From positions 1 through 64,000 of the forward strand of contig NZ_WESC01000005.1 in NCBI RefSeq assembly GCF_009184905.1: a stretch of DNA of 64,000 nucleotides, written 5' to 3'. Source of the stretch: Parvibaculum sedimenti (GTDB lineage: Bacteria > Pseudomonadota > Alphaproteobacteria > Parvibaculales > Parvibaculaceae). The position numbers and the translations under genes are program-made. Below, in pieces: positions 46,777-51,211 of this stretch; position 1 is the first letter of the stretch; every line of letters starts with the position of its first letter. The notes below the pieces were generated by a model. It had not been told where the DNA came from. It did not search any database and saw only the letters and a list, made by a program, of their open reading frames with translations.

Positions 46777-47487
46777 GTGGGACTGACTGTGAGAGGCACG
46801 TTAGAAAATGCACAGGGTAGACCCCGGAGTGGCGCAGGCCGCCCAAGGACCAATGCCACGCCGCCCTCGGACGACGCGCGGCGCGACATCATAGAGGCCG
46901 CCGCGCGGCTATTCCGGGCCAAGGGTATCGCCGGGGCGTCGGTGCGCGAAATCGCGGCGGAGGCGGGGCTCCAGAAGGCCTCGCTCTACTACTACTTCGG
47001 ATCGAAGGAAGAGATCGTCCACGCGATGATCGAGGGGGTGCTGACGCCTGCGCTGGCCATGCAGAGGCGCCTCGGGCGGGCGGCGCTGTCCGAGGCGGCG
47101 CGGCTCTATGCCTATCTGCGCTTCGACGTCGAGCAGCTCTGCGCGGCGCCCTACGACTGCACCTGGCTCATCAATCACGGCGACCTGAACGATCCACAGA
47201 TGACGGCCTTCTGGGCGGACCGGAACAAGCTCGTCGCCTGGATCGAAGCCCGGCTGAAGCGGGGGGTGGACGCTGGGGAATTCCACGCCTGCGACAGGAA
47301 TATGGTGGCAAAGGCCATGATTGCGGCGACCGAATATTCGGTCACATGGGCCGAGCGACAGGACGCGGCCCGCATTGTGGCGACGGCGGAGGAAGTTGCC
47401 TCGCTGCTCGTCCGGGGTGTGCTTGCGCCGGGCAGGAACCTCAACGCGCTGCGGCGGGAGGCCGCGGCCTTCAATCATCCGGTATAA
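46777..47487 (+). CDS. TetR-family transcriptional regulator
   Basis: A 236-residue regulator. The N-terminal helix-turn-helix reads ARLFRAKGIAGASVREIAAE then AGLQKASLYYYFGSKEEIVH, and the rest is the helical ligand-binding domain. The start is a GTG at 46777 or perhaps 46789. It lies between the divergent FadJ-like gene and the downstream Rieske oxygenase gene, whose promoter bears a very long palindrome, so it most likely represses the oxygenase and perhaps itself. The ligand may be an acyl-CoA or an aromatic/terpenoid compound; not determinable. Confidence 0.92.
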   Translation: MGLTVRGTLENAQGRPRSGAGRPRTNATPPSDDARRDIIEAAARLFRAKGIAGASVREIAAEAGLQKASLYYYFGSKEEIVHAMIEGVLTPALAMQRRLGRAALSEAARLYAYLRFDVEQLCAAPYDCTWLINHGDLNDPQMTAFWADRNKLVAWIEARLKRGVDAGEFHACDRNMVAKAMIAATEYSVTWAERQDAARIVATAEEVASLLVRGVLAPGRNLNALRREAAAFNHPV

Positions 47488-47497
47488 GCCGTCCGCA

Positions 47498-47526
47498 TTG
47501 ACAGGTTGGGTTGGCCTCCCCATTAT
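47498..47526 (+). promoter_or_regulatory. Promoter of the Rieske oxygenase gene
   Basis: A perfect -35 TTGACA (47498-47503) is followed after exactly 17 bases by CATTAT (47521-47526) as -10. The expected start near 47533 is inside the long palindrome, so a bound repressor would block RNA polymerase directly. Confidence 0.6.
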
Positions 47527-47556
47527 TTCGACCGATCGGTCGAAATAATGGGGAGG
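47515..47556. promoter_or_regulatory. Perfect 42-bp palindrome (TetR-type operator) over the oxygenase promoter and ribosome-binding site
   Basis: Each arm is 21 bases with no spacer; the left arm begins CCTCCCCATTATTTCGACC and the centre is ACCGATCGGT. All 21 base pairs match. The core TTTCGACC-GATC-GGTCGAAA is the usual size of a TetR operator; the remaining outer bases extend the symmetry across the -10 box on the left and into the GGGGAGG ribosome-binding site on the right. The TetR gene ends just upstream. Confidence 0.85.
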
Positions 47557-47561
47557 GAGCC

Positions 47562-48698
47562 ATGCCGTCGAAAAATATCGAGGAGGCGCTGCTGGCCGGG
47601 CAGGCATCGGTGCTGAAGCCGCTTGCGGAAGCCTCGACGCTGCCGCCCGAGTTCTACACTTCGTCCGGGATATTCGAGGCCGAGATGGAGCGCGTTATGC
47701 GCCGCAACTGGTATTCGGTCGGCCATGTGGCGGAGATCCCCAATCCCGGCGACTACTTCCGTTTCGACCTTGCGGGCGAGCCGCTCGTGATCGTGCGCGG
47801 ACGCGACGGCGCGGTGCGGGCGCTATCCGCCGTTTGCCGCCACCGCTGGATGATGGTGGCGGAGGGTGCGGGCAATGCCGGCACCTTCTCCTGCCCCTAT
47901 CACAAATGGACCTATGCGCTCGACGGATCGCTGATGGCCGCGCCGTTGATGGACAAAGCAGCTGATTTCGACCGCAAGAATTGCTCGCTCCCCAATTTCG
48001 GCTGCGAGGTCTGGCAAGGCATCATCTTCGTCAATCTCGATGGCAAGGCCGCGCCTCTTGCGCCCCAGCTTCAGCCGCTCGCGGAGGAATTGGCGCCCTG
48101 GAAAATGGACGAAATGGAGATCGTCGGCCGCGTGGAATTCGATCAGGCGTTCAACTGGAAGACGCTGGTCGACAATTTCATGGAGGCCTATCACCACTTC
48201 GCCATCCATCCCGAGACCTTCGAACGCGACTATCCGGGCGCGGATACGAGCGTCGACACGGCAGCGGGGGCCTATGCGGTGCTTCGCATTCCGCACAGGG
48301 GAGACGAGCTTTCGGCGACGCTCTTCCCGCCGCTCGATGGCATTCCCGACAAGGCGCGGCGGGGCTTCTCCGTCTTCAATGTGTTCCCTGCGCATATTTT
48401 CGCGGTGCTGGCGGATTCGCTCATCTACTACCGGATGGAGCTGAAGAGCGTCGAAGAGTTCAAGCTCACGGCGTATCTGCTCGTCCATCCGAAATCGCTC
48501 GATGTGCCGGATGCCGAAGTGCTGAAGGATATTTTCCGGCAGGCGACTTTCGCGATCCATATGGAGGACATTGCGGCTTGCGAGGGCACGCAGAAGGGAC
48601 TGCGTAGCCGGACGGCGGGGCCTGCGCGGTTGAGCCATCTCGAAGCGGCGATCCATCAGCATCAGATATGGCTGCTCGATCAACTGGCTCGCGGCTGA
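47562..48698 (+). CDS. Rieske [2Fe-2S] aromatic-ring-hydroxylating-type oxygenase, large subunit
   Basis: A 378-residue alpha subunit. The Rieske domain has CRHRWMMVAEGAGNA and CPYHKWTYALDG, giving the Cys-x-His...Cys-x2-His cluster ligands. The mononuclear iron site is in VDNFMEAYHHFAIHPE (conserved Asn/Asp, two His). It would use electrons from a separate reductase, not present nearby, to hydroxylate or demethylate an organic compound. It begins after GGGGAGGGAG, which forms part of the long palindrome. The small size and lone alpha subunit fit the homotrimeric group that includes choline/carnitine-type and demethylase enzymes. Substrate unknown. Confidence 0.92.
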   Translation: MPSKNIEEALLAGQASVLKPLAEASTLPPEFYTSSGIFEAEMERVMRRNWYSVGHVAEIPNPGDYFRFDLAGEPLVIVRGRDGAVRALSAVCRHRWMMVAEGAGNAGTFSCPYHKWTYALDGSLMAAPLMDKAADFDRKNCSLPNFGCEVWQGIIFVNLDGKAAPLAPQLQPLAEELAPWKMDEMEIVGRVEFDQAFNWKTLVDNFMEAYHHFAIHPETFERDYPGADTSVDTAAGAYAVLRIPHRGDELSATLFPPLDGIPDKARRGFSVFNVFPAHIFAVLADSLIYYRMELKSVEEFKLTAYLLVHPKSLDVPDAEVLKDIFRQATFAIHMEDIAACEGTQKGLRSRTAGPARLSHLEAAIHQHQIWLLDQLARG

Positions 48699-48810
48699 GC
48701 CCCTTTCCCTCGCGTCAGCCATCGGCGCAGGACGACTTGCATGCTTTCGGCTTGTCCTTGCTTTGCTGCCTTGTGGTAGGCTTGCCACCAACAGGAAACG
48801 CAAAAAGGGA

Positions 48811-48829
48811 AGGGGGCTGTTCGCCCCCT
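48811..48829. other. GC hairpin in the leader of the MoxR gene
   Basis: AGGGGGC, a 5-base loop TGTTC, then GCCCCCT form a perfect 7-bp stem about 30 bases before the chosen start. On the minus strand it is followed by TTCCCTTTTT, so it might stop antisense transcription; on the plus strand it would be a leader hairpin. Its position argues against translation starting as far up as 48763. Confidence 0.4.
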
Positions 48830-48858
48830 GGACAGTGTTGAACAAGGTAGTTCCAGAC

Positions 48859-49794
48859 GTGAACGGCGATGCGCCGTCGCAGATCGCGGCCATTCGGCAG
48901 GGTTTCGAGCGCAGCGGCTATATCTGCAACAACCAGATCGCGACCTCGATCTTCCTCGCCGAGCGGTTGCAGAAGCCGCTGCTCGTCGAGGGCCCCCCCG
49001 GCGTCGGCAAGACCGAACTCGCCAAGGCGACGGCGGAGCTTCTCGGCAAGCCGCTGATCCGGCTGCAGTGCTATGAAGGTCTCGACGAGGCGAAGGCCCT
49101 TTATGAGTGGAAATATGGCAAGCAGCTTCTCTATACGCAGGTGCTGAAGGAGAAGCTCGGCGACCTCATGTCCGGCGCGCAGGGGCTGAAAGAGTCCATC
49201 TCGCGTCTGCACGAGTTCGACGACACGTTTTTCAACGAAGAGTTTCTGGAGCCGCGGCCGCTGCTGAAGGCCTTGTGGCAGCCGGGCGGCGCGGTGCTTC
49301 TCATCGACGAGCTCGACAAGTCGGATGACGAGTTCGAAGCTTTCCTGCTCGAAATTCTCTCCGACTATCAGATCTCGATTCCGGAACTTGGTACGATCAA
49401 GGCGCGGACGACGCCCATCGTCTTCCTGACCTCGAATAATTCGCGCGAGATCGGCGACGCGCTGAAGCGGCGCTGCCTGCATCTCTATATTCCGTTCCCG
49501 GACACGGAACTCGAACAGCGCATCATCCGCGCCCGCGTGCCGGAAGTGGAAGAACGTCTGCGCAATCAGCTCGTCGCCTTCGTGCAGGGCCTGCGCGCAC
49601 TCGACCTCAAGAAGCTGCCGGCGGTGAGCGAGACGATCGACTGGGCGCGCACGCTGGTTCTGCTTCATGCGCGCGAACTCGATGCCGAACTCGTGCGCGA
49701 CACGCTCAATGTGCTGCTGAAGTTCCAGGACGACATCGAGAATGTCGATTCCGAGATCAATGCGTTGACGACAAAGGCGCTGGCCGCGAGCTGA
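48859..49794 (+). CDS. MoxR-family AAA+ ATPase
   Basis: A 311-residue ATPase. Walker A is LLVEGPPGVGKTELAKATAE, Walker B VLLIDELDKSDDEFEAF, sensor I FLTSNNSREIGDALKRRC (with the Arg finger region). Such ATPases work with VWA proteins in metal-cofactor insertion or complex maturation. The start is uncertain: GTG at 48859 (VNGDAPSQIAAIRQGFERSG follows the family) is preferred; GTG 48835 and TTG 48838 are alternatives. One base separates its stop from the VWA gene, so they form a pair. Confidence 0.9.
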   Translation: MNGDAPSQIAAIRQGFERSGYICNNQIATSIFLAERLQKPLLVEGPPGVGKTELAKATAELLGKPLIRLQCYEGLDEAKALYEWKYGKQLLYTQVLKEKLGDLMSGAQGLKESISRLHEFDDTFFNEEFLEPRPLLKALWQPGGAVLLIDELDKSDDEFEAFLLEILSDYQISIPELGTIKARTTPIVFLTSNNSREIGDALKRRCLHLYIPFPDTELEQRIIRARVPEVEERLRNQLVAFVQGLRALDLKKLPAVSETIDWARTLVLLHARELDAELVRDTLNVLLKFQDDIENVDSEINALTTKALAAS

Positions 49795-49795
49795 C

Positions 49796-51211
49796 ATGAC
49801 CGAAGTCCTCGGCGATTTCATACGCGCGCTCAGGGCGGCCGATGTCCGGGTTTCGACCTCGGAATCGATCGATGCCGGGCGCGTGGTCGATCTCGTCGGG
49901 CTCGGCGAGCGCGAGATTTTGCGCCATGCGCTGAGCCAGGTGCTGGCGAAGACCGAGGACGAGAAGCAGGCTTTCCGCGACACGTTCGACCGCTACTTCG
50001 CCTTCGACCAATTCAAGGCGAAGTCCGAAACCTCGACGCAGCAACAGGGCGATGCGGAGCGGGAGCCGAATGCCGGTGAGACGCAAAACGGTTCGGGCGG
50101 AATGCCGGGGCCGGGCGGTGGCGGCACGGAAGGCCAGCCTTCGGGTGGGGCGCCCGCGCCGCAAGACCTCGTCGCCATGCTCGAAGGTGGCGATCAGGCC
50201 GCGCTGCAAATGGCGCTTGCCGAAGCGGCACGTCAGGCGCAGCTCAACCGCATCAGGCTTTTCACGCAGCGCGGCATGTATACGCGCCGCATGATGGAGA
50301 TCATGGGGCTCGACGCGCTGAACGATGAGATCGAGCGGCGCGAGAGCGGCGATCCCAAGGGCGCCGAGCGTCTGAGCGATGCCCGCGACGCGCTGCGCGA
50401 GCAGGTGCGCGACTATGTGGAGAAGCAGCTCGAAATCTTCACCGCCAATGCCGGACGGCAATTGCGCGAGGAAGTGCTCTCGCAGGTTCGCCTCAGCAAT
50501 GTCGACCGCAGCGACATGAAGATCATGCGGGCGCTGGTGGCGAAGATGGCCAAGCGCCTCGTCGCGCTCCATTCCCGCCGCAAGAAGGTGGAAAAGCGTG
50601 GCCAGCTCGACATGCGCCGCACCATCCGCGCCAATGTCGAGTTCGACGGGCTGTTCTTCCACACCATCTGGAAGCAGCAGAAGATCGACCGTCCCAAGGT
50701 CATGGCGATCTGCGACGTCTCGGGTTCGGTGGCGCAGGTGGCGCGGTTTCTGCTGATGTTCCTTTACAGCCTTCAGGAAGTGCTGCCGCGTGTGCGCTCT
50801 TTCGCATTCTCCGGCCAGCTCGGAGAAACGACGGAACTGTTCGAGCGCGAACGCGATATCGAAAAGGCGCTCGCCCGTGCGCTGATGGAGCATGGCGGGG
50901 GCTCGACCGACTACGGCCAGGCATTCCTCGATTTCGAACGGCTGGCGCTTGACGATGTGGACCACCGCACGACGGTCCTCATTCTCGGCGATGCACGGTC
51001 GAACTATGGCAATCCGCGCGGCGACATTCTGAAGAAAATCCATGCCCGCGCCCGCCGCGTTATCTGGCTGAACCCGGAGCCCAGGTCGCTATGGAACTCG
51101 GGCGACAGCGAGATGAAGCGCCTCGCTCCCTATTGCGACACGGCCAAGACCTGTGCCTCGCTGAAGGACCTCGAACGGGTCATTTCCGAGCTTCTGCGCC
51201 ACGCCACCTGA
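49796..51211 (+). CDS. VWA domain-containing CoxE-like protein
   Basis: A 471-residue cytoplasmic protein. A Gly/Pro/Gln-rich linker (about residues 80-120) follows an N-terminal helical domain, then a central helix-rich part, then a VWA domain with the MIDAS motif DVSGS in KVMAICDVSGSVAQVARFLL, a Thr in GGGSTDYGQAFLDF and Asp in VLILGDARSNYGNP. MoxR/CoxE pairs assist maturation of metalloenzymes such as CO dehydrogenase. No coxMSL genes are visible, so the client is unknown. Confidence 0.9.
   Translation: MTEVLGDFIRALRAADVRVSTSESIDAGRVVDLVGLGEREILRHALSQVLAKTEDEKQAFRDTFDRYFAFDQFKAKSETSTQQQGDAEREPNAGETQNGSGGMPGPGGGGTEGQPSGGAPAPQDLVAMLEGGDQAALQMALAEAARQAQLNRIRLFTQRGMYTRRMMEIMGLDALNDEIERRESGDPKGAERLSDARDALREQVRDYVEKQLEIFTANAGRQLREEVLSQVRLSNVDRSDMKIMRALVAKMAKRLVALHSRRKKVEKRGQLDMRRTIRANVEFDGLFFHTIWKQQKIDRPKVMAICDVSGSVAQVARFLLMFLYSLQEVLPRVRSFAFSGQLGETTELFERERDIEKALARALMEHGGGSTDYGQAFLDFERLALDDVDHRTTVLILGDARSNYGNPRGDILKKIHARARRVIWLNPEPRSLWNSGDSEMKRLAPYCDTAKTCASLKDLERVISELLRHAT

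Follow-up and report, generated by a model that had tools for sequence, protein, structure and literature searches.

The short region between a TetR-family regulator gene and a Rieske oxygenase gene of Parvibaculum sedimenti, analysed within a stretch of 64,000 nt (the window), carries a perfect palindrome of 42 bp. The best overall explanation, to which a probability of about 0.55 is given, is a control site that works in two layers, one at the level of DNA and one at the level of RNA. In the first layer, TetR bound to the inner ~20 bp would shut off the Rieske promoter by covering its -10 box and start point. In the second, transcripts entering from the terminator-less tetR gene would carry both arms of the palindrome, fold, and bury the Shine-Dalgarno sequence (SD), while mRNA made from the Rieske promoter itself would start at the dyad centre and contain the right arm alone. 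Leakage from tetR would then yield no oxygenase, and expression would depend on the release of TetR. Among related loci, the outer arms are specifically self-complementary where tetR abuts the Rieske gene without a terminator, and not where a cytochrome P450 gene and gaps with hairpins or terminators intervene.

The upstream gene (positions 46777-47487, forward strand) encodes a presumed repressor of 236 aa, read from GTG, with the Pfam domains TetR_N (E 4.9e-18) and TetR_C_24. The downstream gene (47562-48698, forward strand) specifies the alpha subunit of a Rieske non-haem iron oxygenase (378 aa; Pfam Rieske and Ring_hydroxyl_A), whose nearest solved structure is the oxygenase subunit of carnitine monooxygenase (6Y8J/6Y9C). 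Genes for a MoxR-type ATPase and a VWA-domain protein lie 3' of it at 48763-51211, as they do in relatives wherever the ortholog loci extend that far, and a link to enzyme maturation is possible. The interval 47498-47562 runs from a -35 element, TTGACA (47498-47503, forward strand, 10 nt past the TetR stop codon), to the ATG of the Rieske gene (A at 47562). Together with a 17-nt spacer and the -10 element CATTAT (47521-47526, forward strand), it makes the best, and the sole, sigma-70 match in the region (10 of 12 positions). Counting 7-9 nt past the -10 box puts the transcription start at about 47533-47535; the predicted start is accordingly placed at 47533-47536 (forward strand), at the dyad centre. 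TTGAC stands 36-38 nt from that centre in all 13 of the 13 operator-bearing loci.

The palindrome occupies 47515-47556 and consists of CCTCCCCATTATTTCGACCGA followed directly by TCGGTCGAAATAATGGGGAGG, two arms of 21 bp that match at 21 of 21 pairs and read the same on either strand. The next-longest spacerless palindrome in the 64-kb window, which is the scope of these statistics, has arms of only 9 bp, and spacerless arms of 21 bp are expected by chance ~4e-8 times in 64 kb. The left arm contains the -10 box, and GGGGAGG, the SD (47550-47556), forms the exact outer end of the right arm. The left outer arm (47515-47525, forward strand), an anti-SD arm present in read-through RNA only, pairs with the right outer arm (47546-47556, forward strand). 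The original prediction had described a perfect 42-bp palindrome without a spacer, overlapping the -10 box, likely start point and SD of the Rieske gene; the pair count confirmed the former, and the promoter match and SD position, with the start as predicted from them, bore out the latter. Three other identities for the element were considered and rejected. It is not a mobile or repeated element, as its 20-bp core is single copy in its own genome, even with up to 3 mismatches allowed, and a 385-genome sample of the class yielded no further genome with an exact match to it. Nor is it an intrinsic terminator, because no U-tract follows either arm, and none was called on it. It also matches no known RNA family: against Rfam cis-regulatory families the best scores were 19.2-19.9 bits, far under the gathering cut-offs.

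The inner ~20 bp, TTTCGACCGATCGGTCGAAA (47526-47545, without strand), very probably serves the neighbouring TetR-type repressor as its operator. The comparison covered 15 loci with close Rieske orthologs (at least 65% identity, with the window included as G000), 14 of them from the same genus and one, G029, from another genus of the family. The sequence TTTC[G/A]ACCGnnCGGT[C/T]GAAA was present at the equivalent position in 13 of the 15, and a TetR ortholog was located near the site in all 13 (the window and 12 others). The remaining two, G001 and G012 (loci L165 and L168), lack a TetR ortholog and have also lost the promoter and left half-site. Here the Rieske gene comes straight after the P450 gene, and a right half-site relic, GGTCGAAA, is kept before it along with the ribosome-binding site (RBS). 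In G017, TetR is present but both the Rieske ortholog and the site are missing. The site is conserved with TetR and lost where either TetR or the Rieske gene is lost, and therefore all three travel together. As is typical of a TetR operator, it is a dyad-symmetric site in the target promoter, adjoins the TetR gene, and is kept and lost with the regulator.

A TetR search of the genome contigs recovered distant homologs only. That such homologs (25-56% identity over short stretches) use the same operator elsewhere was rejected, the matches in a loose scan being scattered and chance-like. A suggestive single case in that scan was GACCGAACGGTC, near the start of a TetR match at position 3017 of L032, from a KSB1 bacterium. 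Within the genus, the tetR-P450 gap of G013 and G007 (L163 and L169) contains a lone half-site-like sequence, AAATTTCGACCC, upstream of the P450 gene, which may be a TetR site that is weak or a relic.

The TetR protein of the window is homologous to PfmR (TTHB023) of Thermus thermophilus (E 2.5e-15 to PDB 3VPR, the entry for PfmR; PMC10636190). According to PMC7022988, in-vitro selection gave PfmR the consensus CTGACCGATCGGTCAG, with a KD of 2 nM, the measured site is 16 bp, and PfmR sites overlap core promoter elements of their target promoters. The central 12 bp of the window site, GACCGATCGGTC, are identical to this consensus, the inner half-sites GACCG and CGGTC both matching. The two systems are alike in their TetR-family proteins, in the shared central 12 bp, and in the placement of sites over core promoter elements, but PfmR has 16-bp sites and other target genes, and the available text of PMC7022988 describes no self-complementary extension into an RBS. 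A conserved core of 20 bp and a measured PfmR site of 16 bp also agree with the earlier contention that 42 bp is more than a TetR dimer needs.

One way to account for the excess length is that two TetR dimers bind cooperatively to the whole 42 bp, with the outer arms as protein contacts. QacR, according to a reference cited in PMC10636190, occupies its operator in the form of two dimers that cooperate, and the mode of action of PfmR has been likened to that of QacR. A further likeness is that the qacA operator is an extended inverted repeat close to the start point, occupied by a TetR-family repressor. However, sequence comparison found 20 bp conserved, not the long conserved palindrome of a QacR-type operator, the flanking arms vary under the same recognition helix, and the PfmR site is short. 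One dimer on the core suffices, the two-dimer option of the original prediction is not needed, and binding of this kind appears very improbable.

The arrangement of genes differs among the operator-bearing loci. They share the order fadJ-like gene (opposite strand), tetR and Rieske gene, with a cytochrome P450 gene (Pfam PF00067) between the latter two in 10 of 13. Only in G000, G020 and G029 does tetR directly precede the Rieske gene, and the gaps from its stop codon to the -35 element (10, 10 and 26 nt, respectively) contain no terminator. In the ten P450-separated loci, the gap before the -35 element is 65-256 nt long and contains a hairpin in every case, several being terminator-like with a U-tract. 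One such hairpin element, around TCATTGCGAG...AAGCAATCCAG...CAATGACGG, was seen upstream of the -35 element in G010, G023 and G008 (L004, L006 and L009) and recurs in several P450-Rieske gaps; it looks like a REP-type dispersed repeat. In most Parvibaculum loci of the series L163-L177 (genomes G013, G007, G024, G016, G010, G009, G008, G021, G011, G023, G017, G001 and G012), a P450 gene adjoins the Rieske or TetR gene, and it is absent from between tetR and the Rieske gene in the window, G020 and G029, through either a gain or repeated loss. In a midpoint-rooted Rieske tree, G000 and G020 together branched next to all other Parvibaculum, while a long branch set G029 apart from both. With G000 and G020 in one clade and G029 separate, the abutting loci represent two independent lineages, not three.

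Beyond the 20-bp core, the arms do not have one conserved sequence among the orthologs. Counted from the centre, pairing extends over 21 bp in G000, 17 bp in G020 and 21 bp in G029 (in a different sequence, with one G-T inside the core); in six other loci it reaches 15-16 bp, disregarding a central A/A pair in five, and in four it is broken by indels. In the nearest relative, G020, the outermost 4 bp of either arm are not palindromic. Its Rieske gene (L003/L167) is interrupted in frame by a TAA at codon 36, which reflects either a pseudogene or an assembly error. Between G000 and G029, which belong to different genera, 6 of the 11 outer pairs have changed on both sides, and all are still paired in both. 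Three tests, chosen after inspection of the data and applied to few and related sequences, gave the following results: the covariation score over nine gap-free loci was 0.178, against 0.073 for shuffled controls (0 of 500), a comparison that related sequences may inflate, and at most 0.060 for slid controls; in chimeras with arms swapped between species, the native pairing, which in G000 surpassed every chimera from another clade, ranked first in G000 (1/23), G020 (1/23) and G029 (1/25) but in no P450-separated species; and relative to promoter-spacer shuffles in which three letters of the -10 box were held fixed, native pairing had P values of 0.001, 0.014 and 0.001 in G000, G020 and G029, versus 0.04-0.88 in the ten others. 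The helix-turn-helix and recognition-helix region of TetR is nearly invariant among the orthologs while the outer arms vary, and because it is nearly unchanged across these species, TetR recognition fails to explain arms that are symmetric but differ in sequence. That the outer arms have a selected function as RNA is, on these comparisons, about an even bet or marginally better.

Predicted folding describes what such a function may consist of. In read-through RNA, the palindrome is predicted to form a hairpin with a 19-bp stem and a 4-nt loop, in which 8% of the SD region (-16 to -5) is unpaired and opening it takes 26.4 kcal/mol; if the RNA instead begins at the dyad centre, the same region is predicted to be 70% unpaired, with an opening cost of 2.6 kcal/mol. 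When the upstream length was varied, or the temperature set to 30 C, the predicted cost was 20-26 kcal/mol for read-through RNA versus about 3 kcal/mol for the short RNA. Relative to shuffles, the read-through stretch of 113 nt has a folding z of -4.7, and the short leader is unremarkable (z = 0.4). With its predicted start at the dyad centre, the gene's own mRNA would leave the SD free. The RBS is then, by prediction, paired in the long RNA and free in the short one, as in the lysozyme gene (e) of phage T4, and the -10 box is inside the left arm, its position being the basis for the predicted dyad-centre start. The SD borders the operator, which is why some occlusion is predicted at all 13 loci, but hairpins are predicted to be more stable in the three abutting loci (-29 to -37 kcal/mol) than in the others (-14 to -26 kcal/mol). 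No clear SD is present in G029, where a poor RBS is what would be occluded. G001 and G012 lack the hairpin, and their RBS is predicted to open for 4.4-6.5 kcal/mol; the Rieske gene is presumably expressed there by read-through from P450, which the missing hairpin fits, although fusion of P450 to the Rieske gene would itself remove the left arm.

The original prediction that read-through RNA hides the SD is supported by predicted folding (opening cost 21-26 versus about 3 kcal/mol), and its idea of control at two levels has been strengthened on the RNA side, which the abutting-only arm pairing and the compensatory changes between genera raise above speculation, to the level of an inference from sequence comparison. 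A more specific proposal, held tentatively and at slightly less than even odds, is that the outer operator arms were selected as RNA, with transcription starting at the dyad centre, and would combine repression with insulation against read-through from the operator's own repressor gene. This insulation would have been relaxed once a terminator or another gene took over the shielding.

Other explanations of the outer arms dispense with insulation. The site may act on DNA only, as an ordinary TetR operator whose outer symmetry is a by-product of geometry, the -10 box and SD lying in the arms, or of a wider footprint, and whose hairpin has no role. The strong support for the operator itself, the 10 of 13 loci with little or no above-chance outer-arm pairing, and the lack of the last 4 bp of the palindrome in G020 all favor this, and it retains a fair-sized chance of being correct; it is made doubtful by arms that are self-complementary in different sequences (G000/G020 versus G029) under a near-constant helix-turn-helix, and by arm pairing exactly where no terminator shields the Rieske gene. 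The hairpin could also serve the tetR message, either by protecting its 3' end or through an RNase III cut that parts it from the Rieske mRNA. It starts 28 nt past the tetR stop, its perfect stem of 19 bp could plausibly be cut by RNase III and stop exonucleases, and the P450 species have other hairpins after their upstream gene. Such a role is nevertheless unlikely, as it would not demand the SD as the paired segment, and the element has neither a U-tract after either arm nor a called terminator. Improbable to a similar degree is a mutational origin, in which quasi-palindrome template switching, a known way of perfecting imperfect inverted repeats, produced the arms without selection, since the process should act equally in the P450-separated species, whose arms carry indels or stay short.

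The nearest precedents for the RNA-level role appear, by analogy, to be two genes of phage T4. Long upstream transcripts of gene e fold and hide the RBS, with ~100-fold less lysozyme, while transcripts from late promoters just upstream of the RBS are without the 5' portion of the structure and are well translated (PMC3014915). The likeness is an RBS hidden on long transcripts and free on short ones, but in gene e the promoter is a phage late promoter and the same element contains no repressor operator. In the case of I-TevI, the protein acts as repressor at an operator that overlaps the promoter, and transcripts from upstream fold so that the RBS is sequestered (PMC2988022). Control at the DNA and RNA levels at one spot would be common to both systems; however, I-TevI is an autorepressor endonuclease, whereas the regulator in the window is of TetR type and belongs to a bacterial chromosome, and the operator's own dyad would supply the hairpin. 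Hairpin insulation from external transcription is also known from the ends of IS10 and IS50, which mask the RBS of the transposase on transcripts that read in from outside, but in a mobile-element context and with no TetR operator. No published description of an operator palindrome hiding the SD in read-through RNA was found in a limited literature search, which is weak evidence.

Where an operator is long and over-symmetric, the usual view is that it serves as a protein site alone. If the outer arms are kept for RNA pairing, then operator length would carry information about protection from read-through, and this could be checked in many regulator-target tandems by sequence alone. If the proposal is true, the 42 bp would also provide a compact part for leak-free promoters, an operator and read-through insulator in one. 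If it is general, the extended symmetry of TetR-type operators over the start point and SD would represent a widespread dual-level switch.
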